The notes under the pieces are model-generated. The model was given only the letters and a program-made list of their open reading frames with translations. It had not been told where the DNA came from and made no database searches. The position numbers and the translations under genes are program-made. Positions 34,502 to 55,138 of a stretch of DNA of 64,000 bases are shown piece by piece; the first letter of the stretch is position 1, and each line of letters opens with the position of its first letter. The stretch comes from Leadbetterella byssophila DSM 17132 (GTDB lineage: Bacteria > Bacteroidota > Bacteroidia > Cytophagales > Spirosomataceae), in NCBI RefSeq assembly GCF_000166395.1, contig NC_014655.1:248001-312000 (forward strand), written 5' to 3'.

Positions 34502-34554
34502 GAAGTACTCCCGATTTTCTGGACAGCCGAATAAGTAATAACTTAGAGGTTGAT

Positions 34555-36482: not shown

Positions 36483-39400
36483 CTACTTAAACTCGCTGGG
36501 TGATACCCCAAACTGTTTTTTGAAACTAATGGAGAAATGAGACAAGGTGTTAAAACCGGTCATATATGCGATCTCTGAGATATTGTACTGACCTGTTTTA
36601 ATATATTCAGCGGCCTTGTTTAACTTGTAAGTTTTGAAGAAAGATGCAGGGTTTTCTCCGGTTAAAGATTTTATCTTGTAGTAAAACTTAGTTCTGCTAA
36701 GATTAAGTCTTTCTGTCATTTTTACAATGTTCAGTTCAGAGTTGTCCAACTCTTCGTTCATGAGTGCATAAAATTCATTTAGCAGGACTTTGTCATGAGG
36801 TGAAATGCCTGCTTCTGACAACATTCTTTTGGTAGTAGTGGTAGTGGTTAAAATTTCCCGGACTTTCTTTCTGTTATTAATTTGAGATTTTACTACTGCA
36901 ATTAGATATAATGGATCAAAGGGTTTTACGATATACGCATCGGCCCCTTTGTACAATCCTTTGACCTGCTCCTGGGTAGTACTTTTGGCCGTTAGTAAAA
37001 TTACCGGAATATGGCTGTATTCTATGTTTTCTTTAAGATACTGACAGAAGTCGTATCCGCTCATACCGGGCATGAGAACATCGGAGATAATCAAATCGGC
37101 CTCAAAGGTTTCCATAGTTTTTATCGCGTCTTCTGCATTAAAAACAGATTCGATTGTAAAATCAGCTGAGAGAATGGTTTTCAGAAAGTGAGTTATTTCT
37201 GGTTCATCGTCTACTATGAGTATTTTCTCTTTTTTTCCTAATAGTGTTTCAATTTCATTATCTGCAGGAGAAGAAATGGAAGAGTCCTGTGGTTTGTCCA
37301 CAGAATCTTCACTTATGATTTCAGAAGGGGAGTAGTTTTGGTTTCCTAGAGGAAGTACAATCGAAATTGTGGTTCCGCCTGTCTCATTCTGAAAAGCTTC
37401 AATCTCTCCATGATGAGCTCTGATTAATCTTTGGCTGTAATTTAAGCCGATTCCTGTACCGTAATGGTTTAAGCCATTGTGGTGATTAACCTGATAGAAG
37501 CGTTCAAAAACCCTTTTTAGATCCTTTTTCGGAATTCCTATTCCTGTGTCCTTTATGTCCACTTTTACCAGTTTTGTTTCTGTTGAAGGAGTGTTTGGGT
37601 ACTCATTATCCGTTATACTAACAAGAACTTCTATATTTCCACCTGCCGGAGTGTATTTTATAGCATTTGAGAGAATGTTAGACAGTATTTTATCAAATTT
37701 ATCTCTATCCAGATAAAGCATAATAGGTCCGCTTTCAATTTGAACAGAAAGCCTGATATTCTTTTCTTTAGCTGAAAAAGAGAATAAGTCCACGTTTCGT
37801 CTTATTTCAGGAATAATGTCTAAGTAGATGGTTTTAAGGGGAGAATCGCCATCTTTCAGGTTATTAAAGTCCAGAATTTGATTTACGAGTCCCAGCATTT
37901 TATCTACGTTACGCTGGATGATAGAAAGCAGGTTTAATGTTTCCGGATTTAAATTTTGAGCGGAAAGCATGGTTACCGGCCCTTTAATCATGGTAAGCGG
38001 TGTTCTGAATTCGTGCGATATATTTGAAAAGTAATTGAAATTGAGCTCATTAATTCTTATAGCCTCCTGTTTTTCTCTCTCTGCAAGTAAGGTCTTGTCT
38101 TTGTCCGTTTTCCAGGAAGAATAAAGTCTGAAGAATACATAGCTTACACCACCTAAAGTTAAAACATAAAGTAAAATCATAGGTGAAGATGCCCACCAGG
38201 GAGGAAGCATTTTTAAGGAAATAGCAGTTTCGAAAATTTCGCCCTGACTATTACTGGAAGCCCGCACTTTAAAAATATAGTTACCGGGAGGAATTTTGTA
38301 GAAATTAGCCTGACGGCTTTTTCCCGCATCAGTCCAGTCGTCGTTGTATCCCTCTAATTTGTATTCGTATTTGTAGTTTTTCAGCTGGCTATAATTAAGA
38401 ATAGTATAGTGAATACTAAAGGAATTGTTCCAATTCTTAAGCTGAATACGCTTTACCGGAGTACTTTGGCTACTTGTTTCAAATAGTTTGTGTTTATCCG
38501 AAGTGACTTTTTCGATGACTATCTTGTTAGATTGTTCAGGAATGGCTTTCAATGGGTTAATTTCGGTAATACCGTGAGTTCCGCCGAAATAGAGTCTGCC
38601 TTCATCATCTTTGGCTAATGCATTGAAGTTGTACTGATTTCCTCCGGTGCCGTCCTCACTAAAATAGACGATGGCTTTGTCTGTTTTAGGATCTAGTTTT
38701 GACAATCCGTTTTGGGTAGGTATCCAAAGATAGCCCTGACTGTCTTCAATAATGCCGGATGCATCATTGCAGATGGCTTTAGCATTCAGATAATTTTTTG
38801 TTTGTCTGGTTGTGGGTGAATAAGTGAAGAGGCCATTAAGGTGTGTGGGTATCCATAAGTTTCCATTCGAATCTTCAAAGACCTGATTGGGTAGGAAAGG
38901 CGTAACAGAAGGTTTGATTTCGATATTTTTCGTGGTTAATGTGTTAGGATTTATCAGGAATACTCCTCTGCCAAGAGCAGAAACAGCTATTTCACCACTT
39001 CTTAGTTTGGTTAAACCCGTAGTATAGTTATAGCCCGGTTTATAAAACTGTTTCTTCTCAAAGGTATCTCCCTTTTTGTAATAGATGTACTCTCCAAATC
39101 CAGCCACCCAGATATTGCCATTGTCATCTTCTGCAATAGAAGACATGGTTTCCTCAAATTTGTAGCTTTTGACTATGGATACGGTGGAATTGTGTACAGA
39201 GCATTGATAAAGATCATTACCAGAGTTTACCCAAAGATATCCGTTGCTATCAAAAAAAAGGTTTCCGTTTTTGCCAAATCCGGTGTGTGGCAAGGTTGCC
39301 TTTGTGACCTGACCGTCACTTACTGTGTATTTGTATATACCGTCTTTGCTGGTAAGAATCCACAGGTTTTTGTCTTTAGCCTGAACAATTTTCATGATAG

Positions 39401-40439
39401 ATTTTCCTTGAAGAGCATTTTCCAAAAGATATTTTTCATTGAAAATCTTCTCTGACTTTCTAACCATTTCAAATCCTTTGTCCGTAGATCCAAACCAAAG
39501 ATTGTTGCGAGAGTCCGTAAAGACGGTAGTTAGTTCAAAATCGGGAGCAGCGAAGGGAAAGTCTTTGTGTGACTGATGAACCAATGTATTGGTAACAAAA
39601 TCAAAGTAAAAGAGCTCATTCTGAAAAGTCTTTAGAATCACAGCCCTTTGATTGTACCTGAATATATTCGAAATGCCTGAGGCGGGAAAATCAGTATAGG
39701 TGGCTATTTTTTCGGGAAGTTGTTTAAATTCAATAGTGTCTGTATCAACTATGCTTATTCCATTAGAATGAGACAGCCACAGTTCTCCAAATTCATTAAT
39801 ATATAAACTATGGATTAGCTTAACAGCTGGAATCTCCAGTTTTTTGATAAGTTTAAAATCAGGGTCATAAACGGAGATATTGTTTTGTGTGGCTACCCAT
39901 AATCTATTATTAGAATCAAATGCTTCCAGATTAAGAACAGTTGGGTTAGGAAATTTAGAGAAGTAAGTAAGTTTACTTTCAAATGTATTCTTTTCAGGAT
40001 TGAATACACAGATGTCATTGCTTGTGTTGATGATTATTTTGCCGGACTTGTCTTCCAGAATCTGAGCTATAAAATTACTGGAGCTACCGGTAGGGATTAT
40101 TTTAAATTTTCCGTTTTCGTACAATGAAACTCCATGAGTTGAAGTTCCTACCCAAAGTCTGTTTTTAGAGTCGTATAAAAGTGCACTTACCACGTTAGCC
40201 TGTAAGCTAACGCTGTCGTTGTTAAAAGTAAATTGTGTAAACTCATGCCCGTTATACCGGTTTAGTCCTCGTGTTGTACCCAGCCAGATATATCCGTACT
40301 GGTCTTCTACAATAGAGGTTATAAACTTATTTGAAATTGCTTGCCCTTCAGTTTCTACCGCGGCGTTTTCCAGATAGTTCTCAGGAGAGTGGCATGCTGA
40401 TAAAAGTAGAAGGAGAATTGCAGATATTATACGAGACAT
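36483..40439 (-). CDS. Hybrid two-component system sensor/regulator (HTCS) of the utilisation locus
   Basis: The protein has 1318 residues: a lipoprotein-like signal (LLLLLSACHS), a periplasmic double beta-propeller (about 30-640) with DQYGYIWLGTTRGLNRYNG-type blades, a Y_Y_Y domain (about 670-745), one membrane helix (about 750-775), a histidine kinase with ISHEFRTPL (His809) and GTGIGLNYSQRL, a receiver domain with SDVLMPGMSG (Asp1120), and a C-terminal AraC DNA-binding domain (about 1215-1318). In this class the propeller binds an oligosaccharide cue and the AraC domain activates the neighbouring susC-susD operon, which is divergent here. All key residues are present and the gene is intact. 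Confidence 0.95.
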   Translation of the reverse strand: MSRIISAILLLLLSACHSPENYLENAAVETEGQAISNKFITSIVEDQYGYIWLGTTRGLNRYNGHEFTQFTFNNDSVSLQANVVSALLYDSKNRLWVGTSTHGVSLYENGKFKIIPTGSSSNFIAQILEDKSGKIIINTSNDICVFNPEKNTFESKLTYFSKFPNPTVLNLEAFDSNNRLWVATQNNISVYDPDFKLIKKLEIPAVKLIHSLYINEFGELWLSHSNGISIVDTDTIEFKQLPEKIATYTDFPASGISNIFRYNQRAVILKTFQNELFYFDFVTNTLVHQSHKDFPFAAPDFELTTVFTDSRNNLWFGSTDKGFEMVRKSEKIFNEKYLLENALQGKSIMKIVQAKDKNLWILTSKDGIYKYTVSDGQVTKATLPHTGFGKNGNLFFDSNGYLWVNSGNDLYQCSVHNSTVSIVKSYKFEETMSSIAEDDNGNIWVAGFGEYIYYKKGDTFEKKQFYKPGYNYTTGLTKLRSGEIAVSALGRGVFLINPNTLTTKNIEIKPSVTPFLPNQVFEDSNGNLWIPTHLNGLFTYSPTTRQTKNYLNAKAICNDASGIIEDSQGYLWIPTQNGLSKLDPKTDKAIVYFSEDGTGGNQYNFNALAKDDEGRLYFGGTHGITEINPLKAIPEQSNKIVIEKVTSDKHKLFETSSQSTPVKRIQLKNWNNSFSIHYTILNYSQLKNYKYEYKLEGYNDDWTDAGKSRQANFYKIPPGNYIFKVRASSNSQGEIFETAISLKMLPPWWASSPMILLYVLTLGGVSYVFFRLYSSWKTDKDKTLLAEREKQEAIRINELNFNYFSNISHEFRTPLTMIKGPVTMLSAQNLNPETLNLLSIIQRNVDKMLGLVNQILDFNNLKDGDSPLKTIYLDIIPEIRRNVDLFSFSAKEKNIRLSVQIESGPIMLYLDRDKFDKILSNILSNAIKYTPAGGNIEVLVSITDNEYPNTPSTETKLVKVDIKDTGIGIPKKDLKRVFERFYQVNHHNGLNHYGTGIGLNYSQRLIRAHHGEIEAFQNETGGTTISIVLPLGNQNYSPSEIISEDSVDKPQDSSISSPADNEIETLLGKKEKILIVDDEPEITHFLKTILSADFTIESVFNAEDAIKTMETFEADLIISDVLMPGMSGYDFCQYLKENIEYSHIPVILLTAKSTTQEQVKGLYKGADAYIVKPFDPLYLIAVVKSQINNRKKVREILTTTTTTKRMLSEAGISPHDKVLLNEFYALMNEELDNSELNIVKMTERLNLSRTKFYYKIKSLTGENPASFFKTYKLNKAAEYIKTGQYNISEIAYMTGFNTLSHFSISFKKQFGVSPSEFK

Positions 40440-40686: not shown

Positions 40687-43600
40687 ATGAAAAATGTTTT
40701 GTCTCAAGCAAGATGGAGGCTTTGTTATAGCCTCTTTAAATTTCTTCTATTTTTTATTTTACCGCTTGCGGCGAGTGCCCAGCAATCTTTTAAAGGCAAA
40801 GTCACCGACGGCAAAGAACCTCTCATCGGGGTATCGGTTACTGTTAAAGGTACAAGTACAGGAGGTTTTACAGATGCAGAAGGAAATTTTGAAGTAAAGA
40901 CCTCCTTAGAAAAGCCGGTGCTGGTTTTTTCTATGGTGGGATATTCTACTAAAGAGGTGGCAGCTGTTTCTTCTGGCAACATAGAGGTGGTCATGGAAGA
41001 AAGCAATATTGGTCTGGATGAAGTAGTGGTAGTGGGATACGGTGTTCAGCGAAAAAGTGATTTAACCGGAGCGATATCGCAGGTAAAAACGGAAGATATA
41101 GAAAACCGAACGGTAGTAAATGCTCAGCAGGCATTGCAAGGAAAGGCCGCCGGAGTGCAGGTAATACAAACCTCAGGTGCCCCGGGCAGTAACCCTACTA
41201 TTCGTATAAGAGGTTTTAGTTCTAACTCATCCTCAGACCCCCTGTATGTAGTTGATGGACTAAGAACTTCTAATATTGCGGGAATTGACCCTAACAATAT
41301 TGAAAGTATGGAGGTGTTAAAAGATGCTGCTTCCGCTGCTATATACGGTGCTCAGGCGGGAAATGGTGTAATATTAATTACGACAAAAAAAGGGAAATCA
41401 GGTGTAGCTAAAATTACGTATGACTACCAAATGTCCACAAGCGAATTAAATCGGATTCCTAAGGTGATGAATGCTCAGCAGTATGTCAGCTATATGACAG
41501 AAGCTAATTTTATCACCCCGAATGAAGTGAATACCTTGTGGGACGGTGTAACCAATACGAATTGGGCGGATATTGCTTTCGAAAAATCACTGATGCACAG
41601 GCATAATCTTGGGTTACAGGGAGGTAATGAAAAAGGCACCTATTTTGTAGGGCTTTCTTACCTGGATCAGGACGGTATAGTTGTTGGCAATCAGGATGTT
41701 TATAATCGTGTTTCGGGGATGATTAACGGAGACTACAAGATACGGCCATGGCTTAAAATCGGAACTACAAATACACTGGAAAAATGGACAAGTCAGACAG
41801 TATCAGAAAACTCTGAGTACGGAAGTTTGCTGGCCGCTGTACTTACCATGGATCCGCTTACTCCCAATCTTTATTCAGAGAATAATCTGCCTGATTTTAT
41901 GAAAAGCCATCTGCAGGTAGGCAGGGCGTTAATAAGAAACAGTTCTAGAGACTACTATGGTGTGTCAAGAATTTTTGAATCGGAGCAGATTCATCCGGGC
42001 ATTATGAGGGATGTTAATCAAAACAAGAACTCCGGTGCAAATATATTGGGTACCATGTTTATGGATATCATGCCTTTGAAAGGTCTGGTTTTTACGTCCA
42101 AGTTCGGTTATAGAGGAGCTTTCTCCAATAATCATACTTTTCAGGATATGTATTATGCCAATGCGGTAGCCTACAGAGACAAGATTAATATGAGCAGAAC
42201 AAACTCAAACAGCATTTATTATCAGTGGGAAAATTTTGCCAACTATCATTTCAAATTAAAGTCGCATGACTTTACAGTGATGGCGGGTACATCATATCAG
42301 CACACAGAAACCGCTAGTGTGAATGCCGCTGGAAATGAACTTATTAAGAATGATCTTCCCTACAGGGATCTGGACTTTCTGGCACCAACAGCTACGAGAA
42401 CTATCGGTGGTATTCAGCTTTATACAAGGCAATTGTCCTACTTTGGACGTTTGAGTTATAACTATCTTGATAAACTATTGTTTCAGGCTTCGTTACGAAG
42501 AGATGCAAGTGACAACTCGATTTTACCCTACGAAAACAGATGGGGTACCTTTCCGGCCATGTCACTTGGATATGTAATTTCAAAAGAGAAGTTTTTTCCC
42601 AAGACCGATTGGATATCTTTTCTTAAAGTGAGGGCGAGTTGGGGGCAAAACGGAAGTACGGGACCACTTGGCGGTTATGCGTATCTGGCTTCTATTATGT
42701 CCGGAGGAATGTATCCTTACTCATCGGATATCAATTATCAGGTGGCTTCTTCTCCCAATACATTAACTAACCCAAATTTAAAATGGGAAACCTCAGAGCA
42801 GACAGACTTTGGTATCGACCTCAGAGCTTTTGATAATCGATTTTCTGCAACTCTCGACTATTTCCATAAAAAGACGAGCGGGTTACTTGTAGCTATTACA
42901 CCGCCTTATGAGACAGGTGTGACATCAACGGTAGTTAATGCAGGGAATGTAACTAATAAAGGCTTTGAGGCAGAATTAGGCTGGGAAGATCAGTTTAGCA
43001 GCGGTTTTAAATACGGAATCAAAGGTAATATAGCTACACTTAAGAACAAGGTAACCTATCTTGATCCGAGTATTTCAAGAATCAGTGGGGCTTCTTATCA
43101 TACGTTTACAGGAATTACTGCATTTGAGCAAGGACTTCCGGTGTGGTATTTCAGAGGGTATGAATTACAAGGAATTAACAGAGAAACCGGTGACCCGATA
43201 TTCAAAGACCAGTTTACGGTTGATACCAACGGTGATGGAATTCCGGATCAGGGCGATGGCATAATTAACGATCAGGACATGGCCATGATTGGCAGTGCAA
43301 TTCCTGATTTTACGTATGGTATTACATTGACAGGCTCATTCAAAGGATTTGACTTAACGGTCTTCGGAGCGGGATCACAAGGCAATCAAATTTACAATGC
43401 CTTAACCCGTATAGACAGACCAAGAGGGAACAAACTAAGTATATTCTATGATGAAAGATGGACACCGACCAATCAGGATGCTCCAAGGCCAAGACCGAAT
43501 GCAAACGGAGAAGACAAGTACTGGATTAGTGATGCCGCGATATTTGATGCTTCTTTCTTTAAAATTAAGCAGCTTCAGATAGGCTATAGATTACCTTCTT

Positions 43601-43788
43601 CTCTTTTGAGTAAATTAAAGGTAGACAACTGCAGAGTTTATACTTCTCTGGATGACTGGTTTGTGTTTACTAAGTATCCGGGAATGGATCCGGAAGCTTC
43701 AGCAGGGTCAACTTCCGCTTTGGGAGTAGATAAAGGAGCATATCCTATTGCAAAAAAACTGGTTTTTGGTATTAACCTTTCCTTTTAA
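40687..43788 (+). CDS. SusC/RagA-family TonB-dependent outer-membrane transporter
   Basis: The protein (1033 aa) has a signal peptide, an N-terminal carboxypeptidase-regulatory-like domain (FKGKVTDGKEPLIGVSVTVK, residues about 35-110), the TonB-box/plug junction DEVVVVGYGVQRKSDLTGAI (about 113-132), a plug with GFSSNSSSDPLYVVDGLR, and a 22-strand barrel ending in the outer-membrane C-terminal strand KLVFGINLSF. It imports oligosaccharides or other large ligands with the SusD partner. It appears full length and is followed within 6 bp by susD. Confidence 0.95.
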   Translation: MKNVLSQARWRLCYSLFKFLLFFILPLAASAQQSFKGKVTDGKEPLIGVSVTVKGTSTGGFTDAEGNFEVKTSLEKPVLVFSMVGYSTKEVAAVSSGNIEVVMEESNIGLDEVVVVGYGVQRKSDLTGAISQVKTEDIENRTVVNAQQALQGKAAGVQVIQTSGAPGSNPTIRIRGFSSNSSSDPLYVVDGLRTSNIAGIDPNNIESMEVLKDAASAAIYGAQAGNGVILITTKKGKSGVAKITYDYQMSTSELNRIPKVMNAQQYVSYMTEANFITPNEVNTLWDGVTNTNWADIAFEKSLMHRHNLGLQGGNEKGTYFVGLSYLDQDGIVVGNQDVYNRVSGMINGDYKIRPWLKIGTTNTLEKWTSQTVSENSEYGSLLAAVLTMDPLTPNLYSENNLPDFMKSHLQVGRALIRNSSRDYYGVSRIFESEQIHPGIMRDVNQNKNSGANILGTMFMDIMPLKGLVFTSKFGYRGAFSNNHTFQDMYYANAVAYRDKINMSRTNSNSIYYQWENFANYHFKLKSHDFTVMAGTSYQHTETASVNAAGNELIKNDLPYRDLDFLAPTATRTIGGIQLYTRQLSYFGRLSYNYLDKLLFQASLRRDASDNSILPYENRWGTFPAMSLGYVISKEKFFPKTDWISFLKVRASWGQNGSTGPLGGYAYLASIMSGGMYPYSSDINYQVASSPNTLTNPNLKWETSEQTDFGIDLRAFDNRFSATLDYFHKKTSGLLVAITPPYETGVTSTVVNAGNVTNKGFEAELGWEDQFSSGFKYGIKGNIATLKNKVTYLDPSISRISGASYHTFTGITAFEQGLPVWYFRGYELQGINRETGDPIFKDQFTVDTNGDGIPDQGDGIINDQDMAMIGSAIPDFTYGITLTGSFKGFDLTVFGAGSQGNQIYNALTRIDRPRGNKLSIFYDERWTPTNQDAPRPRPNANGEDKYWISDAAIFDASFFKIKQLQIGYRLPSSLLSKLKVDNCRVYTSLDDWFVFTKYPGMDPEASAGSTSALGVDKGAYPIAKKLVFGINLSF

Positions 43789-43793
43789 AAATC

Positions 43794-45371
43794 ATGAAGA
43801 ACATTGTATACAAAATAGCAATAATAATAGTCGTTGCAGTCTCATCGGCATGTGAGAATCATCTTAGAATCGTACAGCCGGGAGCAACCAGTGTAGAGAA
43901 TTTTTATAAGACCGATAAAGATGCTGAAGAGGCCATTGCTGCTGTTTATGCTTCATGGCGGGCTTCCTTGTATGGTCAGTTCTGGTTAAAAAACCTGCTC
44001 TCTGATGATGTCATTTGTGGTGGCGGATCAAGAGGCGATAACAGTATGTATGAGCAAATTAATGAATACAATTTTGGAGCGGCAAATACTACAGTAAGTA
44101 GCACTTTTGCACAATATTACAATGCCATTTACCTCGCAAACCTTATTATAAATCGAATTGAGCCGGATTCCGATGTCAAGAAGCGAGCAGTAGCGGAAGC
44201 TAAGACTATCCGTGCTGCAGTCTATTTCGATCTGGTCACCTTGTGGGGAAATGTACCTCTGGTTACTATGGAGTTGTCACCTGACGAATATCAACAGCCC
44301 AACGGAGACAAAAACGCTCTCTGGAACTTGATAGAAACTGACTACAAGGATGCATTGCAGAGTAATAGCCTTCCTCAGAAGGGAAGTGCTGCCAATACAG
44401 CCCAACCTGCAAGACTTACATCAGACGCAGCCAGAGCGTTTTTAGGAAAAGCTCAGTTATTTCAAGGTAAAAATGAAGAAGCGTTTGAGAACTTGTCAAC
44501 GGTAATCAACGATGGAAAACATGGTTTGGTAGCAGACTATGAAAACGTACTTAGAGCTGTCTCTGATTTTTCTTCAGAGTCTGTCTTTGAGTTTAACTCT
44601 ATAGGTGATGATAATAACGCCTTTGAGCAGGGAAACACCCTTTGGGGAATCATGAACGGCTATAGAAGTGATAAGCTGAATCTTTCCGGGTATTTTACAG
44701 GTTTACATGGTATCTATCCTTCGGGTTGGGGTTTCGGAAATCCTACGTCAGCATTGTATCAGGCATTTCTTGCGGAGGAGGGGGCAGAAGGTTACCGGCT
44801 AAATAACACCATCAAGACTTACAAACAGCTGAATAATGTGGGCATTGCACTTAATCCGGGAAGCTCCTTATATGGAAATGAAGGCTATTTTAATTGGAAG
44901 CACAGATACTTGGGTTCTGAAGTACTTGTGGCATCTTTTGGTTTTTCTACCACAGCCAATTTCAGAGTTTTAAGATATGCTGAAGTTCTTCTTTTAGCTG
45001 CGGAAGCTGCTGTTCAAACCGGAAGGAATGCTCAGGCTCTTTCCTACATCAATCAAATCAGAAGCAGAGCAAAACTAAAAGCTCTTGACAATGTTTCACT
45101 GGATAATATCAAGACAGAAAAGAGACTTGAGCTCTGTTTTGAAGGAGTTCGTTTTCAGGATCTGGTACGCTGGGGAGATACTCACTTTTTAGAGAAACAA
45201 GGTGAAAAAGTACCCACTTTTACTGGATTGAATAACGACGGAAGTCATACCATCATCTACCCCTATAGCAATCAAACTTTTGGTTTCAAAAAGGGGAAGA
45301 ATGAGCTGCTCCCTTTTCCTGAACATGAAATGAATGTGAACAAGAATATTAAACAAAATCCGGGATGGTAA
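43794..45371 (+). CDS. SusD/RagB-family nutrient-binding lipoprotein
   Basis: The product (525 aa) has a lipobox (VAVSSACENH), the N-terminal FYKTDKDAEEAIAAVYASW segment, TPR-like helices in the first half (AEAKTIRAAVYFDLVTLWGN, RAFLGKAQLFQGKN) and the C-terminal family signature RLELCFEGVRFQDLVRWGD followed by LLPFPEHEMNVNKNIKQNPG. It caps the SusC barrel and binds ligand on the cell surface. Its last codons overlap the start of esterase 1 by 7 bp, so expression is coupled. Confidence 0.95.
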   Translation: MKNIVYKIAIIIVVAVSSACENHLRIVQPGATSVENFYKTDKDAEEAIAAVYASWRASLYGQFWLKNLLSDDVICGGGSRGDNSMYEQINEYNFGAANTTVSSTFAQYYNAIYLANLIINRIEPDSDVKKRAVAEAKTIRAAVYFDLVTLWGNVPLVTMELSPDEYQQPNGDKNALWNLIETDYKDALQSNSLPQKGSAANTAQPARLTSDAARAFLGKAQLFQGKNEEAFENLSTVINDGKHGLVADYENVLRAVSDFSSESVFEFNSIGDDNNAFEQGNTLWGIMNGYRSDKLNLSGYFTGLHGIYPSGWGFGNPTSALYQAFLAEEGAEGYRLNNTIKTYKQLNNVGIALNPGSSLYGNEGYFNWKHRYLGSEVLVASFGFSTTANFRVLRYAEVLLLAAEAAVQTGRNAQALSYINQIRSRAKLKALDNVSLDNIKTEKRLELCFEGVRFQDLVRWGDTHFLEKQGEKVPTFTGLNNDGSHTIIYPYSNQTFGFKKGKNELLPFPEHEMNVNKNIKQNPGW

Positions 45372-46168
45372 CACAGAAGATTGTAGTAGCTGTTGTTTTA
45401 TTATTAGCCTCTCTAAATAGCCAAGGGCAAGGTTTTATTATGCCTCCTCAAGGTAAGATAGAATACGAAGTAATAGAAAGTAAGGTATTGAACACCACAA
45501 GAAATTACTCTATTTATCTGCCCAAATCTTACAAGACAGAAGAATCGAGACAATATCCCATATTGTATCTATTGCATGGTATGAACGATACCCACAAAGG
45601 CTGGCCAACCCGTGGACACGTAGAAGACGTGGCCAATCAGCTGATAGATGGAGGGGAGGTTAGAGAGATGATTATTGTTACCCCCGATGCCGGCACAGAC
45701 TGGAACGGTTATTTTGACATGGAAGGTTGGAGCTATGAGCGGTTTTTCTTCGAAGAGTTTTTACCTCATATAGAGGGAAAGTACAGAGTAAGTAGAGGTA
45801 AAGAAGAGAGAGCTATAGCAGGACTATCAATGGGAGGTGGTGGATCTACAGTTTATGCACAAAAGCATCCTGAACTGTTTTCTTCGGTTTACGCGATGAG
45901 TGCTCTGATGAATATCCCATTTGTCGGTGGCCCTCCTGGTCTGGATAAAAAGTTGGATCTGTTAACCCAAAGTGTCATTGCCAATAGCTCTATTGCCTTT
46001 GTTGAAAAAGCCGATGCTGCCACTTTAGAAAAGTTGAAAGCTGTGAACTGGTTTGTGGATTGCGGCGACGATGACTTTTTGCTGGATGTTAACATAGATT
46101 ATGTCAGAGCGATGAAAAAGGTTGGTATACCGCTTCAGTTTAGAATCCGTGACGGAGGACATACCTAG
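45365..46168 (+). CDS. Secreted alpha/beta esterase 1 (CE1/esterase D-like), ended by an amber codon
   Basis: A signal peptide (VVAVVLLLASLNSQGQ) precedes an esterase D-type domain: YPILYLLHGMNDTHKGW, the nucleophile Ser155 in IAGLSMGGG, an acidic DCGDDDFLLD and His266 in RDGGHT. Directly after GGHT comes TAG at 46166-46168; the same frame continues EYWHSALYEALRFPSRNFKK to a TGA at 46229. Relatives, including the next gene, have Trp at this point (GGHTW), so TGG-to-TAG is the simplest reading. The triad survives, but the last helix of 20 residues is lost unless the stop is read through. Role: removing acyl or feruloyl-like groups from the imported glycan. Confidence 0.85.
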   Translation: MVTQKIVVAVVLLLASLNSQGQGFIMPPQGKIEYEVIESKVLNTTRNYSIYLPKSYKTEESRQYPILYLLHGMNDTHKGWPTRGHVEDVANQLIDGGEVREMIIVTPDAGTDWNGYFDMEGWSYERFFFEEFLPHIEGKYRVSRGKEERAIAGLSMGGGGSTVYAQKHPELFSSVYAMSALMNIPFVGGPPGLDKKLDLLTQSVIANSSIAFVEKADAATLEKLKAVNWFVDCGDDDFLLDVNIDYVRAMKKVGIPLQFRIRDGGHT

Positions 46169-46249
46169 GAGTATTGGCATTCTGCACTTTATGAGGCTCT
46201 CAGATTCCCTTCAAGAAATTTCAAAAAATGAATTTTAAGTAAATAAAAA

Positions 46250-47434
46250 ATGAAAAAAACAATTCTAACCTTAAGTATTCTGATCATGAGTGTAATTATG
46301 CTTCATGCCCAGCAAAATCTTGATTTCTCTGGTGCACAGGGAATAATTTCACCGCAGGTAAATGATAACAATACCGTTACTTTCAAGCTCGATGCTCCTA
46401 AAGCTGCAGAGGTTTTTTTACAGGGAGATTGGATGCCGGCAGAAGGATGGGTTCCGGGCAAAGTGGCAATGAAAAAGGATGAAAAAGGAATATGGACATA
46501 TACTTCGGAGTCTTTGAAGTCAGATTTATTCATGTACAATTACATAGTGGATGGGCTGAAAATTACAGACCCGAATAACGTATACCAAATCAGAGACATT
46601 GCCAATATGTTCAGCATATTCATTACCAATGGTGATCAGTCTTCAGCCTATAAGGTAGCTGATGTACCTCATGGGACAGTCTCGCGTACCTGGTACGACT
46701 CCCCTGGTTTAAAGGCTACCAGACGTTTAACGGTTTATACACCGCCGGGCTATGAACGCAGTAAAGAGAGCTATCCGGTGCTTTATCTTCTTCACGGTGT
46801 GGGAGGTGACGAAGAGGCCTGGATTTCCTTGGGAAGGACGGCTCAGATTCTGGATAATCTGATTGCAGCAGGCAAAGCCAAGCCTATGCTTGTGGTGATG
46901 ACTAACGGGCACACCAGTAATGCAGCCGCACCGGGTGAATCAAGCAAGGGACTTTACAAACCAATAATGATGACGCCCGATGTAGGCTCTGGTAATATGG
47001 AGAGTACTTTCCAGGATGTAGTTGACTTTGTAGAGAAGACTTACCGTGTTAAGAAAAACAAGGCAGATCGTGCTATTGCAGGTTTGTCAATGGGCGGTTC
47101 TCACACCTTGTTTATTTCAGCCAATTTGAACAATACATTTGATTATGTAGGACTTTTTTCTGCTGCATATCGTCTGAACAGACCAGATGCAAAGCAAGTA
47201 CCTGCTGTTTATGAAAACTACGAAAAGAACCTTGAAAAACAGCGTGATAATGGGTACAAACTGTACTGGATTGGTATGGGAAAAACAGATTTTCTGTATC
47301 AGAGCGGAGTAGATTTTAGAAAACTTTTAGACGATAAGAAAGTAAAGTATACTTACAGAGAATCAGAAGGAGGACATACCTGGTCAAACTGGAGACTTTA
47401 CCTGTCAGAGTTTGTCCCACTTTTATTTAAATAG
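46250..47434 (+). CDS. Secreted esterase 2 with N-terminal E-set (CBM48-like) domain
   Basis: The protein (394 aa) has a signal peptide ending at about LHAQQ, an immunoglobulin-like E-set domain related to CBM48/isoamylase-N (FKLDAPKAAEVFLQGDWMPA, about 30-125) and a CE1-type esterase domain with LYLLHGVGGDEEAW, nucleophile Ser280 in IAGLSMGGS and His375 in EGGHTWSNW. This two-domain layout is common in Bacteroidota feruloyl/acetyl xylan esterases. It appears intact and lies 18 bp past the extended frame of esterase 1, in the same operon. Confidence 0.92.
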   Translation: MKKTILTLSILIMSVIMLHAQQNLDFSGAQGIISPQVNDNNTVTFKLDAPKAAEVFLQGDWMPAEGWVPGKVAMKKDEKGIWTYTSESLKSDLFMYNYIVDGLKITDPNNVYQIRDIANMFSIFITNGDQSSAYKVADVPHGTVSRTWYDSPGLKATRRLTVYTPPGYERSKESYPVLYLLHGVGGDEEAWISLGRTAQILDNLIAAGKAKPMLVVMTNGHTSNAAAPGESSKGLYKPIMMTPDVGSGNMESTFQDVVDFVEKTYRVKKNKADRAIAGLSMGGSHTLFISANLNNTFDYVGLFSAAYRLNRPDAKQVPAVYENYEKNLEKQRDNGYKLYWIGMGKTDFLYQSGVDFRKLLDDKKVKYTYRESEGGHTWSNWRLYLSEFVPLLFK

Positions 47435-47532
47435 ATTGATTGTTGGCCCTAAATAATCACTTTTTTCAAGCATGTTCTGTTCGGGAATGTGCTTGAATTT
47501 TCAAAATTCAACGAAAATCATTCTTAACACCC

Positions 47533-49829
47533 ATGAAAAAACTATATATATCAGTAGGCATATTTTTCTTCTCATTTCGGCTCTCCGGCCAGCAAGCCCC
47601 CAGCTTGGTAAGAATTCCGTACAGGAGGTGTTAAATGCGATGACGTTAGAAGAAAAGGTAGATTTATTGGTTGGTGCAGGAATGCCCGGTTTTGGTGGGC
47701 CAACAGTAGGACAAACTGAAAACCTCGTTCCGGGTGCGGCTGGTACCACTAAAGCTATTCCAAGGTTGGGAATTCCGGCTATAGTTCTGGCGGACGGCCC
47801 TGCTGGAATAAGGATAAGTCCAACTCGTCAAAATGACACACAAACGTTTTACGCAACAGCCTTTCCAATTGCTACATTGATTGCTTCTTCATGGAACCTT
47901 GAACTGGCTGAGAATATAGGTAAAGCTATGGGTAAAGAGGCTCTTGAATATGGAGCAGATGTACTTTTGGCTCCTGCTTTAAATTTGCATCGACATCCGC
48001 TTAACGGAAGAAATTTTGAATATTATTCTGAAGATCCAATTATTTCAGGGAAAATGACAGCGGCAGCCGTTAATGGTATCCAGTCTAATGGGGTGGGAAC
48101 TTCGATCAAACATTTTGCTGCGAATAATCAGGAAAGCCTTCGTTCAAAAAATGATGTCAGAATAAAAAACCGGACATTGAGAGAGCTATATCTTAAAGGT
48201 TTTGAAATTGCGGTTAAAGAATCATCACCATGGACTGTGATGTCATCCTATAATAAAATTAATGGGACTTACACTTCAGAAAGTAGGGAGCTATTAACAA
48301 CTGTGTTGCGGGACGAATGGAAGTTTGACGGAATAGTTATGACTGACTGGTTTGGTGGAACAAACATTGTAAAGCAGGTTCATGCTGGAAACGATTTACT
48401 AATGCCCGGAATTAAACCACAGAAAGATGCAATTCTTCAGAATGTCAAAGATGGTAAACTGGATGTGAAAGATGTGGATGTTAATGTTAGAAGAATCCTG
48501 GACTTAATTCTGAAAACTCCGAGGTTTAAAAAGTATCCTTACTCCAATAAACCAGATCTGAAAGCTCATGCTTTGATTGCCAGAGAAGCCGCAGCCGAGG
48601 GAATGATATTACTTAAAAATGAAAAACTGACGTTGCCAATATCTTCAGAAACAAAGATTGCTGCTTTTGGTGTTACCTCCTACGATTTTATTAGTGGTGG
48701 GACAGGCAGTGGAGATGTCAACGAGGCGTATATCATTTCACTAATGGACGGGCTATCAGCTTTCAGTGTTGAAAGAAAACTCGCTGAGAAGTATTCGGTC
48801 TACGTTGGAGACTACAAGGAAAAAAACAAACCCGACCCAAATAACCCAATGGCTGCATTTCTAAATAAACCAAGAATGCCTGAGTTGGAGTTGTCAGAGT
48901 CTGAAATTGGAGAATACGCTAAATCTACAGATATGGCTATCATTACAATTGGTAGAAATTCCGGCGAGTTTGAAGATAGAAAGACTACAAATGATTTTTA
49001 TCTCAGTGATGAAGAACAGAATTTGATTTCAAAAGTAGCGAAGGCTTATCATTCTAAAGGTAAAAAAGTTGTAGTAATACTTAACGTTGGAGGAGTGATA
49101 GAAACGGCTTCGTGGAAAGAAAAACCAGATGCTATTTTACTGGCCTGGCAGGCGGGACAGGAAGGTGGAAATTCAGTTGCGGATATTTTAAGTGGTAAAG
49201 TGGGACCTTCAGGAAAGTTGACCATGTCATTCCCAAATGATCTGAAAGATGTAGCATCAAATAACAATTTCCCAATTGATATAGAGTTGAATTTTCAAGA
49301 AATGATGGGAGGAGGCCCACCTAATTCTGCACAGGAACCTCGTAAGAATTTAGAATTCACCACGTATGAGGAAGATCTGCACGTAGGATACAGAGATTAT
49401 ATCACCAATAAAAAACAAGTTTCTTTTCCATTTGGATTCGGGCTTTCTTACACTTCATTCGATTTTAGAAATAGTAAGATTTCTGGAGATTCTAAAGTTG
49501 GGTTTACATTGAAGGTAACCGTAAAGAATACGGGTAAAGCAAAAGGAAAAGAAATTGTTCAGATTTATCGCTCTAATCTAAACAAAGATCCTGACAGGGA
49601 ACTAATTTCCTTTGGTAAAACTAAAGAATTAGCCCCTGGAGAAGTGCAAATATTAACGTTTAAAATTAACTCAGAAGACTTCTCCATTTTTGATGAATCT
49701 ATAAATGCCTGGGTAACAAAGGCAGGTAATTATCACCTTTTAATAGGTAAAAGTGTTTCGGATATTATCCTCACAGAAAATGTGGAGATAAAAGAGAAAT
49801 TTGAGAGGCGGGTGATTGCCAGATTTTGA
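47533..49829 (+). CDS. Family 3 glycoside hydrolase (beta-glucosidase/xylosidase-like), frameshifted in the signal peptide
   Basis: The enzyme body (about 750 aa) has the GH3 N-terminal barrel (MTLEEKVDLLVGAG, ADGPAGIRIS, GTSIKHFAANNQE), the nucleophile Asp in GIVMTDWFGG (codon 48345-48347), the C-terminal domain (LLKNEKLTLPIS, NSVADILSGKVGPSGKL) and a fibronectin-III-like tail (FPFGFGLSYTSF onward). The natural start is the ATG at 47533, which encodes a signal peptide MKKLYISVGIFFFSFRLSGQ, but its frame leaves the enzyme frame at a run of five Cs (47597-47601). One more C would join QQAP to QLGKNSVQEVLNAMT. As read, the enzyme can only start from an unconvincing upstream codon (47472) without an export signal. 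Confidence 0.85.
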
Positions 49830-49879
49830 AAATAAAGGTCTAATATTTAGTCATTCAACTACTTAATTACGAGAAAATT

Positions 49880-50899
49880 ATGAAACAGGCTCTCAGTATT
49901 ATATTTCTATTGGTATCAATTTTCGGATTTGCTCAAAAAGGAAGCGTTCAGACGTTTACAATAAATTCAAAAGCCTTGATCAATAAAGGAGGAGAAAATC
50001 CAAACAGAAGTTGCTCTGTTTATTTACCCCCCGGATATGAAGGAGGCAAAGAACGTTATCCTGTAATCTATTTTCTACATGGTTTCACAGGTACGGACGC
50101 TATTTCTCCGGAAATTAAAAAAGTGCTGGATGAAGGGATAGTCAGAAAGAAAATCAAACCGTATATTTTGGTTATTCCTAATCACTACACACTTTATCAG
50201 GGTAGTTTTTATACTGATTCGGAGTTAACAGGAAACTGGGAGACATTTACTTCTAAGGAGCTGGTCGACTATATGGATAAAAACTTCCGTACGTTGGCTA
50301 CAAAAGAGTCGCGTGGAATTGCCGGGCACTCTATGGGTGGTTATGGAGCAATTAAAATAGCGATGCGTCATCCCGAAGTGTTTAGTTCAGTGTATGGTCT
50401 AAGCCCCGGGCTAATGTCATTTGTTAAGGAGTTTGGCCCCAATAGCCCTTACTTTAAAATCTATCAAAACGCCAGGACGGAAGAAGAACTTACAAGAGCC
50501 TATTATCCGAAAGTTTTGGCAGCTGTAGGCCGGGCTTGGTCTCCTAATCCAAACAATCCTCCATTTTACGCTGATATGCCATTTACGTATAAAGGTGACT
50601 CCTTGATTGTAAACCAAAAGGTTTTAGAAAAATGGCACAGGAATATGCCGGTTGAAATGGTAAATGACTATGCAGACAATTTGAGAAAGTTGACAGCCAT
50701 AAAGTTGGACTGGGGTAGAAATGATTCTCCAAGATTTCCGGTTCAGAATATGGCATTTAGTCAGAAACTGGAAAATCTCGGGATCAATCATTATGCCGAA
50801 GAGTATATCGGTACACACGTAGATAAAATCTGGACACTTGACGGGCGGGTGTTAAACGCTATGCTTCCTTTCTTTAATGATTACCTGAAATTTGAATAA
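49880..50899 (+). CDS. Secreted alpha/beta esterase 3
   Basis: The protein (339 aa) has a signal peptide (IIFLLVSIFGFAQK) and an esterase D-like domain: YPVIYFLHGFTGTDA, nucleophile Ser151 in IAGHSMGGYGA, and a C-terminal acid and His (GTHVDKIWTL). It belongs to the same broad clan as esterases 1 and 2 but is clearly distinct in sequence. It lies 50 bp after the GH3 gene, and the transporter gene begins at or inside its last codons. A third esterase points to a heavily or diversely acylated substrate. Confidence 0.9.
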   Translation: MKQALSIIFLLVSIFGFAQKGSVQTFTINSKALINKGGENPNRSCSVYLPPGYEGGKERYPVIYFLHGFTGTDAISPEIKKVLDEGIVRKKIKPYILVIPNHYTLYQGSFYTDSELTGNWETFTSKELVDYMDKNFRTLATKESRGIAGHSMGGYGAIKIAMRHPEVFSSVYGLSPGLMSFVKEFGPNSPYFKIYQNARTEEELTRAYYPKVLAAVGRAWSPNPNNPPFYADMPFTYKGDSLIVNQKVLEKWHRNMPVEMVNDYADNLRKLTAIKLDWGRNDSPRFPVQNMAFSQKLENLGINHYAEEYIGTHVDKIWTLDGRVLNAMLPFFNDYLKFE

Positions 50900-50903
50900 C
50901 TCT

Positions 50904-52199
50904 ATGCTCGTACTCTATGGTTTACTAATCATTGGGCTATTTCTCGTCTTGATATGGAGTAAGAGAGTTCCAGTGATGATAGCCCTGGTTATGACTCCTG
51001 TTCTGGTGGCAGTGATTGCCGGCTTTTCTGTAGCTGATATTGGTACTTTTGCTTTAAGCGGAATTCGCCAGGTGGCCCCTACAGCTGTGCTTTTGATGTT
51101 TGCTGTACTTTATTTTTCAATCATGTTAGATTCAGGATTGTTTGATCCTGTGATAAAGACGGTGTTGAAGCTTGTAAAGGGCGATCCCTTAAAAGTAGTT
51201 ATCGGTACTGCTTTGCTTACGATGCTTGTACATTTGGATGGCGATGGTACCGCTACTTTTATGATTGTGATTACTGCTTTTTTGCCTATCTACAAGGCAT
51301 TGAAGATGAGTAAACTTGTTCTTGCGGGGATAGTTGCTTTAAGCGTTGGGCCTATTCATCTGGTGCCGTGGTCAGGTACGTCAGCCAGAGCATTGTCCGT
51401 CTTTGAGGCAAGCAGTGCTCAGCTTTTTGTTCCTAATTTACCTGCCATAGGGGCTGGAATACTTTGGGTACTTTTTGTAGCCTGGTATTGGGGACGGGCT
51501 GAGAAAAGACGCCTAGGAGTGTTGGATTTTAGTTATACTTTTGGTGAGGATTTTTCTAAAGATAAACGTCTGTTAAGAAGACCCAAATTAGTATTGGTTA
51601 ATGCTGTTTTGACGGTCACGGTTATTGTTTTACTAACTCTGGAGATAGTGCCTTCGTCGGTTTTGTTTGTGCTGGCTTCTTTACTGGTACTTCAAATTAA
51701 TTACCCTAAGCTACAGGAGCAAAAAATGGTTTTGAGCAGGCATGGGAATAATATCTTTATGGTAGTGAGTATGATTTTTGCAGCCGGAGTTTTCTCAGGA
51801 ATTTTAACAAACGGGGGGATGACTGAAGCTATGGCAACCTCATTGGTAAGCGGTATGAAGTCCGAAAACTCGGGTTTACTTGTTTTGCTTACTGCCATAA
51901 CCAGTATGCCTGCGAGTATTATTTTTACACCTGATGCCTATTATTTTGGTGTTTTACCCATCATCAAAGAGTCAGCGAGCCAGCTTAATATAGACGCAGT
52001 TCAGTTTGGGAGAGCAGCCCTTCTAGGGCAAATGACGGTCGGCTTTCCGTTGAGTCCGTTAACGGCTTCTACATTTTTGCTGATTGGTATGGCTGAGGTG
52101 GATCTGGGAGATCACCAAAAACATACATTTTTTTGGGCATGGGGTACTACTTTGGTTATGACGCTAGTAGCGATTTTGACCGGTTCAATATTTTTATAG
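50904..52199 (+). CDS. CitMHS-type carboxylate:cation symporter
   Basis: The product (431 aa from the ATG at 50904; a TTG at 50892 would add four residues and overlap esterase 3) is a polytopic inner-membrane protein of about twelve helices. Family traits are LIWSKRVPVMIALVMTPVLV, MLVHLDGDGTATFMIVITA, GPIHLVPWSGTSARAL, and VGFPLSPLTASTFLLIG near the end. CitMHS proteins import citrate or related tri- and dicarboxylates as metal complexes. Its place behind three esterases suggests uptake of a released organic acid. The stop abuts the AtuA-like ATG without a gap. Confidence 0.88.
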   Translation: MLVLYGLLIIGLFLVLIWSKRVPVMIALVMTPVLVAVIAGFSVADIGTFALSGIRQVAPTAVLLMFAVLYFSIMLDSGLFDPVIKTVLKLVKGDPLKVVIGTALLTMLVHLDGDGTATFMIVITAFLPIYKALKMSKLVLAGIVALSVGPIHLVPWSGTSARALSVFEASSAQLFVPNLPAIGAGILWVLFVAWYWGRAEKRRLGVLDFSYTFGEDFSKDKRLLRRPKLVLVNAVLTVTVIVLLTLEIVPSSVLFVLASLLVLQINYPKLQEQKMVLSRHGNNIFMVVSMIFAAGVFSGILTNGGMTEAMATSLVSGMKSENSGLLVLLTAITSMPASIIFTPDAYYFGVLPIIKESASQLNIDAVQFGRAALLGQMTVGFPLSPLTASTFLLIGMAEVDLGDHQKHTFFWAWGTTLVMTLVAILTGSIFL

Positions 52200-53513
52200 A
52201 TGAAAGAAACAATTAGAATAGGGTGTGGTGCGGGATTTTCAGGCGACAGGTTTGAACCCGCAGTTATTTTAGCTGAGAAGGGACAATTGGATTACCTTGT
52301 TCTGGAATGCCTGGCAGAGAGAACAATTGCTTTGGCTCAACAGCAAAAGCAAATTAACCCTGATCTGGGCTATGATCCGTTTTTAGAAAGGAGAATAAGC
52401 TCTCTCTTGCCTTTTTTAGAAAAGAAGAAGATCCGGTTAATCACAAATATGGGAGCGGCCAATCCTATTGCTGCAGCTCGTAAAGTAAAGGAATTATGTT
52501 TAGAACAGGGACTTGATCTTAAGGTTGCAGCTGTAACGGGAGATGATGTTTTAGGTTTAATTACAGGAAACGAAATGGCAATTGAAACCAATAAGCCTAT
52601 TTCAGAGTCCGGCAGTTTGGTTTCAGCAAATGCGTACTTAGGTATAGAAGGAATCATAGAATCTCTCGCAGCAGATTCAGATATCATAATCACCGGACGT
52701 GTGGCAGACCCATCGTTGTTCCTGGCTCCTATGGTATTTGAGTTTGGCTGGACGGATGCTGAGCAGTTTGGACAAGGTACCGTTATTGGACACTTATTAG
52801 AATGTGGAGGCCAATTGACAGGGGGGTACTTTATGGATGTTTCCAGAAAGAAGATAGCTGATCCAGCAAACCTGGGTTTCCCAATAGCAGAGGTTAGCAG
52901 AAATGGTGCTGCTATTCTTTCTAAGGTCGATGGAACCGGGGGAAATCTGAATTTAAGAACAGTGAAGGAACAATTGCTTTATGAAGTGTTAAATCCCTAT
53001 AAGTACATAACTCCTGACGTTATAGCTGATTTTAGTAAAGTGAGATTAACGGAACTCAGAAAGGATGAGGTTCTTGTAGAAGGCGGTATCGGGGCGGAAG
53101 CCAGTAACTACTTAAAAGTAAGTGTAGGATATAAAGCATATCATCTTGGAGAAGGTGAGATTTCATATACGGGGTATGATGCCGTTGATAGATCAAAACT
53201 AGCTATTACTATTCTTGAAGAAAGATTGAAATCAGATGGTGTGCAGGAAGTGCGTTACGATCTGATTGGGCTTAACTCTATCAATGAAGACAAGTTTAGT
53301 GTAAACAGTTTTCCTTATGATGTAAGATTAAGAGTAGCTGCAAAGTGTTCTTCAAAAATTGAGGCTCAAAGAATTGGTGAAGAAGTGGAAGCACTTTATA
53401 CCAATGGACCCGCCGGAGGAGGTGGCTCTAGGAAGTATTATAAAGAAGTAATAGGTATTCACTCCATTTTTGTGAGAAAAGAAGATGTATCATTTAAAGT
53501 AACCATTTTATGA
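52200..53513 (+). CDS. AtuA-domain protein (DUF1446 family)
   Basis: The protein has 437 residues, the large AtuA domain: IRIGCGAGFSGDRFEPAVIL at the N-terminus, LDYLVLECLAERTIALAQ, LITNMGAANPIAAARKVKEL, IIITGRVADPSLFLAPM and GHLLECGGQLTGGYF. AtuA is part of the acyclic-terpene (citronellol/geraniol) utilisation cluster of Pseudomonas, where its exact biochemical role is unsettled. Many homologues occur outside terpene degraders beside acid transporters. It starts at the base after the CitMHS stop and overlaps the AtuA-C gene by 4 bp, so the three are translationally coupled. Confidence 0.88.
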   Translation: MKETIRIGCGAGFSGDRFEPAVILAEKGQLDYLVLECLAERTIALAQQQKQINPDLGYDPFLERRISSLLPFLEKKKIRLITNMGAANPIAAARKVKELCLEQGLDLKVAAVTGDDVLGLITGNEMAIETNKPISESGSLVSANAYLGIEGIIESLAADSDIIITGRVADPSLFLAPMVFEFGWTDAEQFGQGTVIGHLLECGGQLTGGYFMDVSRKKIADPANLGFPIAEVSRNGAAILSKVDGTGGNLNLRTVKEQLLYEVLNPYKYITPDVIADFSKVRLTELRKDEVLVEGGIGAEASNYLKVSVGYKAYHLGEGEISYTGYDAVDRSKLAITILEERLKSDGVQEVRYDLIGLNSINEDKFSVNSFPYDVRLRVAAKCSSKIEAQRIGEEVEALYTNGPAGGGGSRKYYKEVIGIHSIFVRKEDVSFKVTIL

Positions 53514-53812
53514 CAAAACTATACCATCTGGCTCATAGCAGAGCCGGAGATAAAGGAAATACGTCAACCTTATCACTGATTCCTTTTAAGGAAGAAGATT
53601 ATCCGCTTTTATGCGAAAAAGTTACAGTTGAAAAAGTAAGAGAACATTTATGGTCTTTTTTACAGGGAAGTATTACACGCTATGAGTTGTATAATATTAA
53701 AAGCCTCTTGTTTGTGTGTGAAGGTGCTTTGTCAGGAGGTGTTACTACGTCTTTATCATTAGATCCACATGGAAAGTGCTTGAGCTCTTTATTGCTAGAA
53801 ATGGAGATATAG
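53510..53812 (+). CDS. AtuA C-terminal-domain protein
   Basis: This 100-aa protein starts LYHLAHSRAGDKGNTSTLSL and ends with a segment containing VCEGALSGGVTTSLSLDPHG, the pattern of the AtuA C-terminal domain that in many bacteria is fused to the large domain. Here the two are separate genes overlapping by ATGA, so they probably form one complex. It is the last gene of the locus. Confidence 0.85.
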   Translation: MTKLYHLAHSRAGDKGNTSTLSLIPFKEEDYPLLCEKVTVEKVREHLWSFLQGSITRYELYNIKSLLFVCEGALSGGVTTSLSLDPHGKCLSSLLLEMEI

Positions 53813-53994
53813 TAAGAAGATAGAACTCTATCCCTAATTTATACAAATATGAAATTTTAGCATTATCTTTTTATGCTATAGGAGTCATTATTTTAACATA
53901 AATATTGTAACCCTCCCCTTTTTAGGACATAGTATAATTAAACAAAGATATTGATTTATTGTTCTTCCAGCAGGGGGTGCTAGCTCCCCCTGCT

Positions 53995-54787: not shown

Positions 54788-54804
54788 TCGCTTTTCAAAA
54801 GGTC

Positions 54805-55071: not shown

Positions 55072-55138
55072 TGTTACAAGTTAATGTTAAACCTTTATTG
55101 TTGCGTTTTAACTTGTCCTATTTTTGGGGAGGGTTACA

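Follow-up and report, generated by a model that had tools for sequence, protein, structure and literature searches.

A cluster of nine co-directional genes in Leadbetterella byssophila DSM 17132 joins the parts of a polysaccharide utilization locus (PUL) to a carboxylate importer and a two-gene AtuA/AtuA-C unit. We lean towards reading it as a PUL-type locus for an acylated beta-glucoside whose acyl group, 3-hydroxy-3-methylglutarate (HMG), would be salvaged by a coenzyme A (CoA)-free lyase made up of AtuA and AtuA-C. The cluster (SusC, SusD, CE1a, CBM48-CE1b, GH3, CE1c, CitMHS, AtuA and AtuA-C) spans positions 40687-53812 of the 64,000 nucleotides analysed (contig NC_014655.1, positions 248,001 to 312,000; hereafter the window). 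In the proposed mechanism SusC/D would capture the acylated glycoside, secreted CE1 esterases would release the acid and, partly, hydroxycinnamate, and GH3 would release glucose. The freed tertiary 3-hydroxy acid would then be taken up by CitMHS and split without CoA by AtuA and AtuA-C, acting as a two-subunit lyase, in a retro-aldol-type cleavage that would convert HMG to acetoacetate and acetate. The scaffold of this mechanism, import of an acid and cleavage of the free acid, appears likely, whereas HMG is a tentative choice of acid, and the substrate is probably a glycoside of a plant phenylpropanoid or flavonoid. The enzymatic steps, the localisations and the substrate are all deduced from sequence. 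The genes of the cluster and the divergent regulator beside it were as follows (window coordinates).

36483..40439, minus strand: divergent hybrid two-component sensor/regulator (Pfam: Reg_prop, Y_Y_Y, HisKA, HATPase, receiver, AraC HTH).
40687..43788, plus strand: SusC-type TonB-dependent outer-membrane transporter (TIGR04056, 810.8 bits).
43794..45371, plus strand: SusD-type surface lipoprotein (PF07980, E 1e-37; PF14322).
45365..46168, plus strand: CE1a, CE1-type esterase with a secreted-looking N-terminus, truncated by an in-frame stop (PF00756, E 4e-25).
46250..47434, plus strand: CE1b, CBM48-CE1 esterase (PF00756; closest solved structures are ferulic acid esterases, 6rzn, E 1e-100).
47472..49829, plus strand: GH3 beta-glucosidase-type enzyme (PF00933 and PF01915; best structures are the beta-glucosidases 8idz and 2x40).
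49880..50899, plus strand: CE1c, CE1-type esterase (PF00756, E 2e-29; 8z91 esterase, E 8e-60).
50904..52199, plus strand: CitMHS, putative carboxylate importer of the citrate:proton symporter family (TIGR00784, 452.2 bits, cut-off 259.7).
52200..53513, plus strand: AtuA-family protein, proposed large subunit of a hydroxy-acid C-C lyase (PF07287, E 1e-143).
53510..53812, plus strand: AtuA-C, the AtuA ferredoxin-like domain, proposed small subunit (PF23544, E 6e-33).

The original prediction, made from the sequence of the window, had listed the same nine genes, and all of them were found on one strand with strong family matches; its sensor and standard PUL parts were likewise confirmed by family matches. 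The AtuA match to PF07287 was full length (residues 5-435, 479.5 bits) and above the gathering score, and the CBM48 match of CE1b was marginal (22.5 bits against a cut-off of 22.4). As in the SusC/SusD PULs of Bacteroidota, where a hybrid two-component sensor, a SusC/D pair and secreted CE1 and GH3 enzymes are clustered, susC and susD were adjacent, with GH3, three CE1 genes and the divergent hybrid regulator alongside. Unlike those PULs, the locus ran on into genes for a carboxylate importer and for what may be a hydroxy-acid lyase, and no endo-acting glycanase was recognised in it, as had been predicted. The literature searched, represented mostly by the beginnings of abstracts, held no PUL of this make-up, in agreement with the prediction.

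The ATGA or zero-gap junctions that had been claimed for the operon were present at its end and not earlier. From CE1c on, the distances were 4 nt to CitMHS (counted from ATG 50904, preferred as the start to TTG 50892, from which the open reading frame was listed), 0 nt between CitMHS and AtuA, and -4 nt, an overlap, between AtuA and AtuA-C; the gaps from SusC through CE1c were 5, -7, 81, 37 and 50 nt. Terminator-like matches numbered 17, with a mean of 10.9 after shuffling, and none of those on the plus strand lay within the gene gaps of the operon, while promoter-like matches numbered 35 against 33.3 after shuffling in one scan and 30 against 33.2 in another. By eye, signal or lipoprotein peptides were seen on SusD and the three esterases and none on AtuA/AtuA-C, which would place ester cleavage outside the cell and AtuA inside. 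A further secreted esterase-like reading frame of 483 aa, also noted by eye, lies downstream of the locus (59758-61209).

The last three genes were found to recur as a unit. An AtuA-family match was present in 16 of 148 sampled genomes of the order, and an AtuA close to that of the window in 75 of 222 genomes of the family, the window's own genome included in both counts (a 76th family match, in G714, was a weak fragment and was left out). Gene surroundings were read for the window and 55 others of the 75 genomes, and for loci from other groups. A triad locus was defined as one with a CitMHS gene on the same strand as AtuA and at most four genes upstream of it. Of 78 AtuA loci in other genomes, 66 were triad loci and 12 had no CitMHS at that place, although two of the 12 (L059 and L093) had an AtuA sequence of the triad type. 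AtuA-C adjoined AtuA in 63/66 triad loci, and in 58/66 a secreted-type esterase (counted classes: CE1, carboxylesterase, Abhydrolase_10, beta-lactamase-like and BD-FAE) was encoded on the same strand at most four genes upstream, with CE1 upstream in 42 and carboxylesterase in 33. Of 405 genes near the triad, 139 belonged to esterase classes, as compared with 40 of 496 in the rest of these loci (odds ratio 6), a contrast that is somewhat inflated because the hidden Markov model (HMM) classes were partly seeded from these loci. Relatives of CE1c itself adjoined or neighboured CitMHS-AtuA in other genomes (L022, L028 and L037). CitMHS-AtuA-AtuA-C is a recurrent, free-standing module with an esterase commonly upstream.

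The PUL part of the cluster was much rarer. In 5/66 triad loci, SusC or SusD was within reach and on the strand of the triad, and the GH3 type of the window stood near a triad only in a Leadbetterella metagenome-assembled genome (MAG), the GH3 of L048 being a different one. Recurrence in other genomes had been set beforehand as a check on the prediction; the core unit recurred in the 66 triad loci, and the version with SusC/D and GH3 in the one MAG. As for the predicted acid-salvage pathway, the recurrent association of esterase, CitMHS and AtuA/AtuA-C speaks for it as a hypothesis, and the rarity of the SusC/D and GH3 make-up does not. AtuA-C-like proteins without AtuA in the 20 kb read were also seen in genomes of other classes (L080:5063-5428, L081:4523-4837 and L082:4816-5235), and in the phylum sample 153 of 395 genomes had a PF23544 match.

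The Leadbetterella MAG, represented by L018 and L046 from the same contig of 212,562 bases (L018 was dropped from the counts), keeps the order SusC-SusD-CE1-GH3-CE1-CitMHS-AtuA-AtuA-C, without the first esterase. Its last three junctions were the same as in the window, and the ratio of non-synonymous to synonymous substitution rates (dN/dS) between window and MAG was 0.02-0.08 for SusD, CE1b, CE1c, CitMHS, AtuA and AtuA-C; for SusC and GH3, dS was saturated. Judged by gene order, junctions and low dN/dS, the cluster is more than a chance assembly.

These data bear on the alternative that a ready-made acid-catabolism module landed next to an unrelated PUL, in which case co-transcription would be incidental and the acid would come from another source. 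That SusC/D and GH3 were seen contiguous with the triad only in Leadbetterella would suit such an event, as would the many free-standing triads in the plasmid records described below and the insertion-sequence genes or remnants that flank the locus on both sides (IS3-like at 34530-35700, IS3-like and ISL3-like at 53950-56100, named by eye). Blastn and tblastx of the two flanks against each other gave no match. The identical CE1c-CitMHS-AtuA-AtuA-C junctions in the MAG, the frequency of CE1 genes upstream of CitMHS and the similar assembly in a Sphingomonas plasmid (see below) argue against it, and we regard it as unlikely.

A hint to the activity of the pair came from a relative of known structure. 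The only solved AtuA relative detected by sequence was PDB 9erq/9evf, named citramalate lyase subunit A (CmlA), to which AtuA was homologous: a profile of 22 sequences matched 9erq with E 2e-8, and hhalign gave a probability of 93% and E 3e-7. A citramalate lyase subunit as the solved relative suggests that the pair cleaves a free hydroxy acid directly. The E. coli O157 protein ECs_0760 matched 9erq along its whole length (970 bits), and its gene overlaps the 105-aa DUF4387 gene ECs_0759 by 4 bp, like AtuA and AtuA-C; in the portion of the source available, ECs_0760 belongs to a glutamate/mesaconate cluster (PMC4682846). At this place (L107:26934-28618) ECs_0760 is annotated as 3-methylaspartate ammonia-lyase in spite of its likeness to CmlA, and ECs_0759 as acyl-CoA synthetase in spite of its DUF4387 domain.

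The two systems thus share an AtuA-family large subunit followed by a partner of about 100 aa that overlaps it by 4 bp. They differ in that the window AtuA is distant, its partner comes from another Pfam family (PF23544 only, and not the DUF4387 of the citramalate lyase small subunit) and the locus holds no mal or glutamate mutase genes. None of 375 genomes in the phylum sample matched a DUF4387 profile, but this profile gave no match anywhere. PF07287 was the only Pfam match of AtuA and no HMGL-like domain was found in it, so any likeness to HMG-CoA lyase would be functional only. A search for literature on CmlA found none. AtuA looks like a hydroxy-acid lyase subunit, while membership of the pair in the citramalate lyase family is not established.

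Outside Bacteroidota, the module was followed on plasmids. A protein search returned AtuA relatives in 161 plasmid records, 53 of them at E below 1e-100, and 18 hand-picked records were opened, 16 of which were annotated at the place and two (L112 and L113) were not; in these two, the HMM search detected CitMHS in L112 and found none in L113. In the opened records from outside Bacteroidota, AtuA was 43-55% identical to that of the window. A transporter adjoined AtuA or its small partner in all 16 annotated records. It was CitMHS in seven (Spirosoma, Roseomonas, two Mycetohabitans, Azospirillum B510, Sphingomonas and the haloarchaeon Haladaptatus), a tripartite ATP-independent periplasmic (TRAP) transporter of the TAXI type in five (Alloyangia, Salipiger, Thalassospira, Thioclava and Pseudosulfitobacter), components of a tripartite tricarboxylate transporter (TTT) in three (a Comamonadaceae strain, Microvirga and A. 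argentinense) and an ATP-binding cassette (ABC) transporter in Tistrella. In A. argentinense a LysR gene lay between the TTT components and the AtuA pair, and an ABC set stood on the opposite side. The small partner, annotated as hypothetical, was assigned by size and place, and that of L108 matched the AtuA-C model.

No CoA ligase or CoA transferase was annotated in 13 of the 16 stretches, a count that is affected by incomplete plasmid gene tables; the exceptions were the Comamonadaceae strain, Salipiger and Pseudosulfitobacter. As a two-gene enzyme behind an importer and without a CoA ligase, the pair probably attacks the free acid directly. These free-standing operons of a regulator or transporter, AtuA and a small partner, found in Proteobacteria and the haloarchaeon, have in several cases the CitMHS-AtuA-small partner order of the window, but many use TRAP or TTT instead and only that of Sphingomonas parapaucimobilis has a PUL part. 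There (L120), LysR, CitMHS, AtuA and the small partner were found together, with Abhydrolase_10 (an alpha/beta hydrolase) and a TonB receptor after the triad and GH3 on the other strand; from its gene content, this alphaproteobacterial stretch is an independent assembly much like that of Leadbetterella.

With respect to the acid, the AtuA tree gave an indication. A FastTree phylogeny was built from 79 AtuA sequences, with L041-L044 as the root. In it, the CitMHS-linked proteins (L059 and L093 counted in) formed a clade of 70 with support 0.896 and one other sequence inside (L023). The AtuA proteins of the window and the MAG were sister to L047 (0.997), next joined by L048 and L051 (0.904). A clade of 26 (0.956) held the window, all three loci with acetoacetate genes and all five loci with hydroxycinnamate-type genes. 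An acetoacetate-CoA ligase gene was located directly behind AtuA-C in L047 and L064, and a 3-oxoacid CoA-transferase (SCOT) gene two genes past AtuA-C in L048, all three exceeding curated NCBIfam cut-offs.

AtuA and the ligase were about 340 bases apart in 2 of 58 genomes holding both, and the higher-scoring CoA-transferase was 2.5 kb from AtuA in 1 of 19. Acetoacetate neighbours within 3 kb would be expected by chance in 0.07 cases (P 6e-5, assuming uniform placement and noticed post hoc). Acetoacetate as a product points to HMG as the substrate. Ligase or higher-scoring transferase was present in 72/75 AtuA-bearing genomes and in 110/147 without AtuA. The two CoA-transferase groups were split at a bit score of about 292, our own choice. 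The second, lower-scoring group was also considered as support for acetoacetate and rejected, because the one cluster checked (L088) was pcaIJ of the protocatechuate pathway. This group, found in 49/75 AtuA-bearing genomes and 10/147 others (uncorrected for phylogeny), is counted only as a link to aromatic catabolism, and the fourth transferase or ligase hit in a triad locus (L089) falls in it.

An HMG-CoA-lyase-like protein (about 280-310 aa, 164-212 bits, named by likeness since all matches were under the curated cut-off of 246) was present in 27 of 32 genomes searched. It was not found in the genomes of L048 (G590) and L064 (G566), nor in G049, G051 and G002. The acetoacetate used in the genomes of L048 and L064 should therefore have another source. 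G049 and G051 carry the fused AtuA-AtuA-C loci L041 (8411-11170) and L042 (6837-9552), the fusion being seen by alignment in L041, and in both the fused gene adjoins a crotonase whose best model was gamma-carboxygeranoyl-CoA hydratase, below cut-off; G049 has in addition carboxyltransferase-like and acyl-CoA-dehydrogenase-like genes. In these two loci, a non-orthologous replacement of HMG-CoA lyase by the fused protein is possible.

The family is named after terpenes, and the atu/liu pathways of acyclic terpenes and leucine share with the window the AtuA and AtuA-C domains, which are fused in L041 and L042. One could accordingly suppose a terpenoid acyl group whose acid is processed, as a CoA thioester, by an atu-like route, an option raised in the original prediction, and the hydratase, carboxyltransferase and acyl-CoA-dehydrogenase-like genes beside AtuA in L041 and the hydratase in L042 would fit, with the hydratases below the curated cut-off. 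The L. byssophila operon, in contrast, has a transporter, and a Pfam scan recognised no CoA ligase, geranyl-CoA or other carboxylase, hydratase or acyl-CoA dehydrogenase in it. Moreover, the CitMHS-linked AtuA proteins form their own clade and the window AtuA is 33% identical to those of L041 and L042. The terpenoid option is highly improbable and was abandoned.

The other option of the original prediction was a citrate-like acid. Citrate itself was rejected as the imported acid on biochemical grounds: an aerobe feeds citrate straight into the tricarboxylic acid (TCA) cycle and needs no lyase for it, so citrate is unlikely. Acetoacetate genes would also be explained if the esterases cut 3-hydroxybutyrate (3HB)-type oligoesters and acetoacetate came from 3HB oxidation. 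A 3HB-oligomer hydrolase near AtuA in Microvirga and weak matches of the three window esterases to the polyhydroxyalkanoate depolymerase model NF050058, far below cut-off, would be in line with this. We give this route very little credit, because the Pfam scan of the operon showed no recognisable hydroxybutyrate dehydrogenase, CE1b is nearest to ferulic acid esterases, CE1c is nearest to an unspecified esterase (8z91) and then to ferulic acid esterases, and the CitMHS family (TIGR00784) favours citrate-like acids.

A number of findings weigh against salvage of HMG by this locus. In L. byssophila itself, the acetoacetate-CoA ligase gene is remote from the locus and has an HMG-CoA-lyase-like gene about 9 kb away, and no TIGR02428 CoA-transferase match was found in the genome (a single contig of 4,059,653 bp). 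The acetoacetate link was noticed post hoc in just three of the 66 triad loci, one of which (L064) has no esterase beside the triad; the esterase is likewise missing in L034, L054, L062, L097, L099, L102 and L104, eight of 66 together. AtuA is distant from CmlA, with a single-sequence phmmer E of just 0.26, and AtuA-C showed no detectable similarity to the DUF4387 protein ECs_0759 (E 0.37, single-sequence template). In Salipiger, CoA transferases, a MaoC dehydratase and a CoA ester lyase are encoded beside TRAP-AtuA-AtuA-C.

Two genes of the cluster also look damaged in this strain. CE1a stops just past a GGHT motif, and an esterase-like frame runs on to about 46230. The GH3 reading frame (785 aa) appears broken: its N-terminus is improbable and has no signal peptide of its own, and a plausible signal peptide begins at ATG 47533 in a different frame, with a switch of frames near 47600. 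GH3 is intact in the MAG (76% identity to the window, as compared with 83-93% for the seven other genes), and CE1a was not found there. The defects could be real mutations or sequencing errors; the portion of the genome report available gives 148 pseudogenes for the published L. byssophila genome and describes strain 4M15 as a free-living aerobe from cotton-waste compost (PMC3072089).

Part of this evidence suits the main rival, in which the scaffold is the same and AtuA/AtuA-C would be a citramalate lyase, yielding pyruvate and acetate, or would serve another citrate-like acid. The name of the solved relative and the glutamate/mesaconate setting of its E. coli homologue speak for citramalate, the Salipiger genes suit C5 acids, and 63/66 triad loci have no linked acetoacetate gene, which pyruvate and acetate as products would not call for. 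Citramalate does not account for the three loci of the window's subclade in which acetoacetate-CoA ligase or SCOT adjoins the module. The AtuA of the window is also distant from CmlA and, among esters of plant glycosides, those of HMG are more familiar to us than those of citramalate. Citramalate or a similar acid is a possible, though doubtful, alternative to HMG.

For the glycoside carrying HMG there is a candidate in flax, where, in the parts of the reports available, HMG is the ester linker of secoisolariciresinol and herbacetin diglucosides in the lignan complex (PMC5116464, PMC6270660). An HMG- or hydroxycinnamoyl-decorated plant glucoside fits as a candidate substrate, and all parts of the locus would be compatible with it. 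Five triad loci (L047, L056, L074, L079 and L106) adjoin sets of an AMP-binding ligase, a crotonase, a short-chain dehydrogenase/reductase and an amidohydrolase, four of them with an aromatic-acid-type major facilitator superfamily (MFS) transporter; we take these sets to be for hydroxycinnamate catabolism, with ligase and MFS scoring under the best cut-offs.

PULs and the AtuA module were each known already; their fusion, and a role of AtuA/AtuA-C as a free-acid lyase, are new. As a more speculative proposal, AtuA/AtuA-C might be a CoA-independent lyase of free HMG that allows the PUL to consume both the sugar and the HMG of plant HMG-glycosides with a flax-type linkage, and that replaces HMG-CoA lyase in some leucine- or terpene-type operons. 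A protein family named after terpenes would thereby gain a testable function, in a free-standing carboxylate module that extends from Bacteroidota to a haloarchaeon. The substrate of a PUL could be an acylated phenolic glycoside and not a polysaccharide. Ester decorations of plant glycans and glycosides are usually seen as obstacles for PULs to remove, and the L. byssophila locus suggests that some PULs may import and burn the decoration, too.

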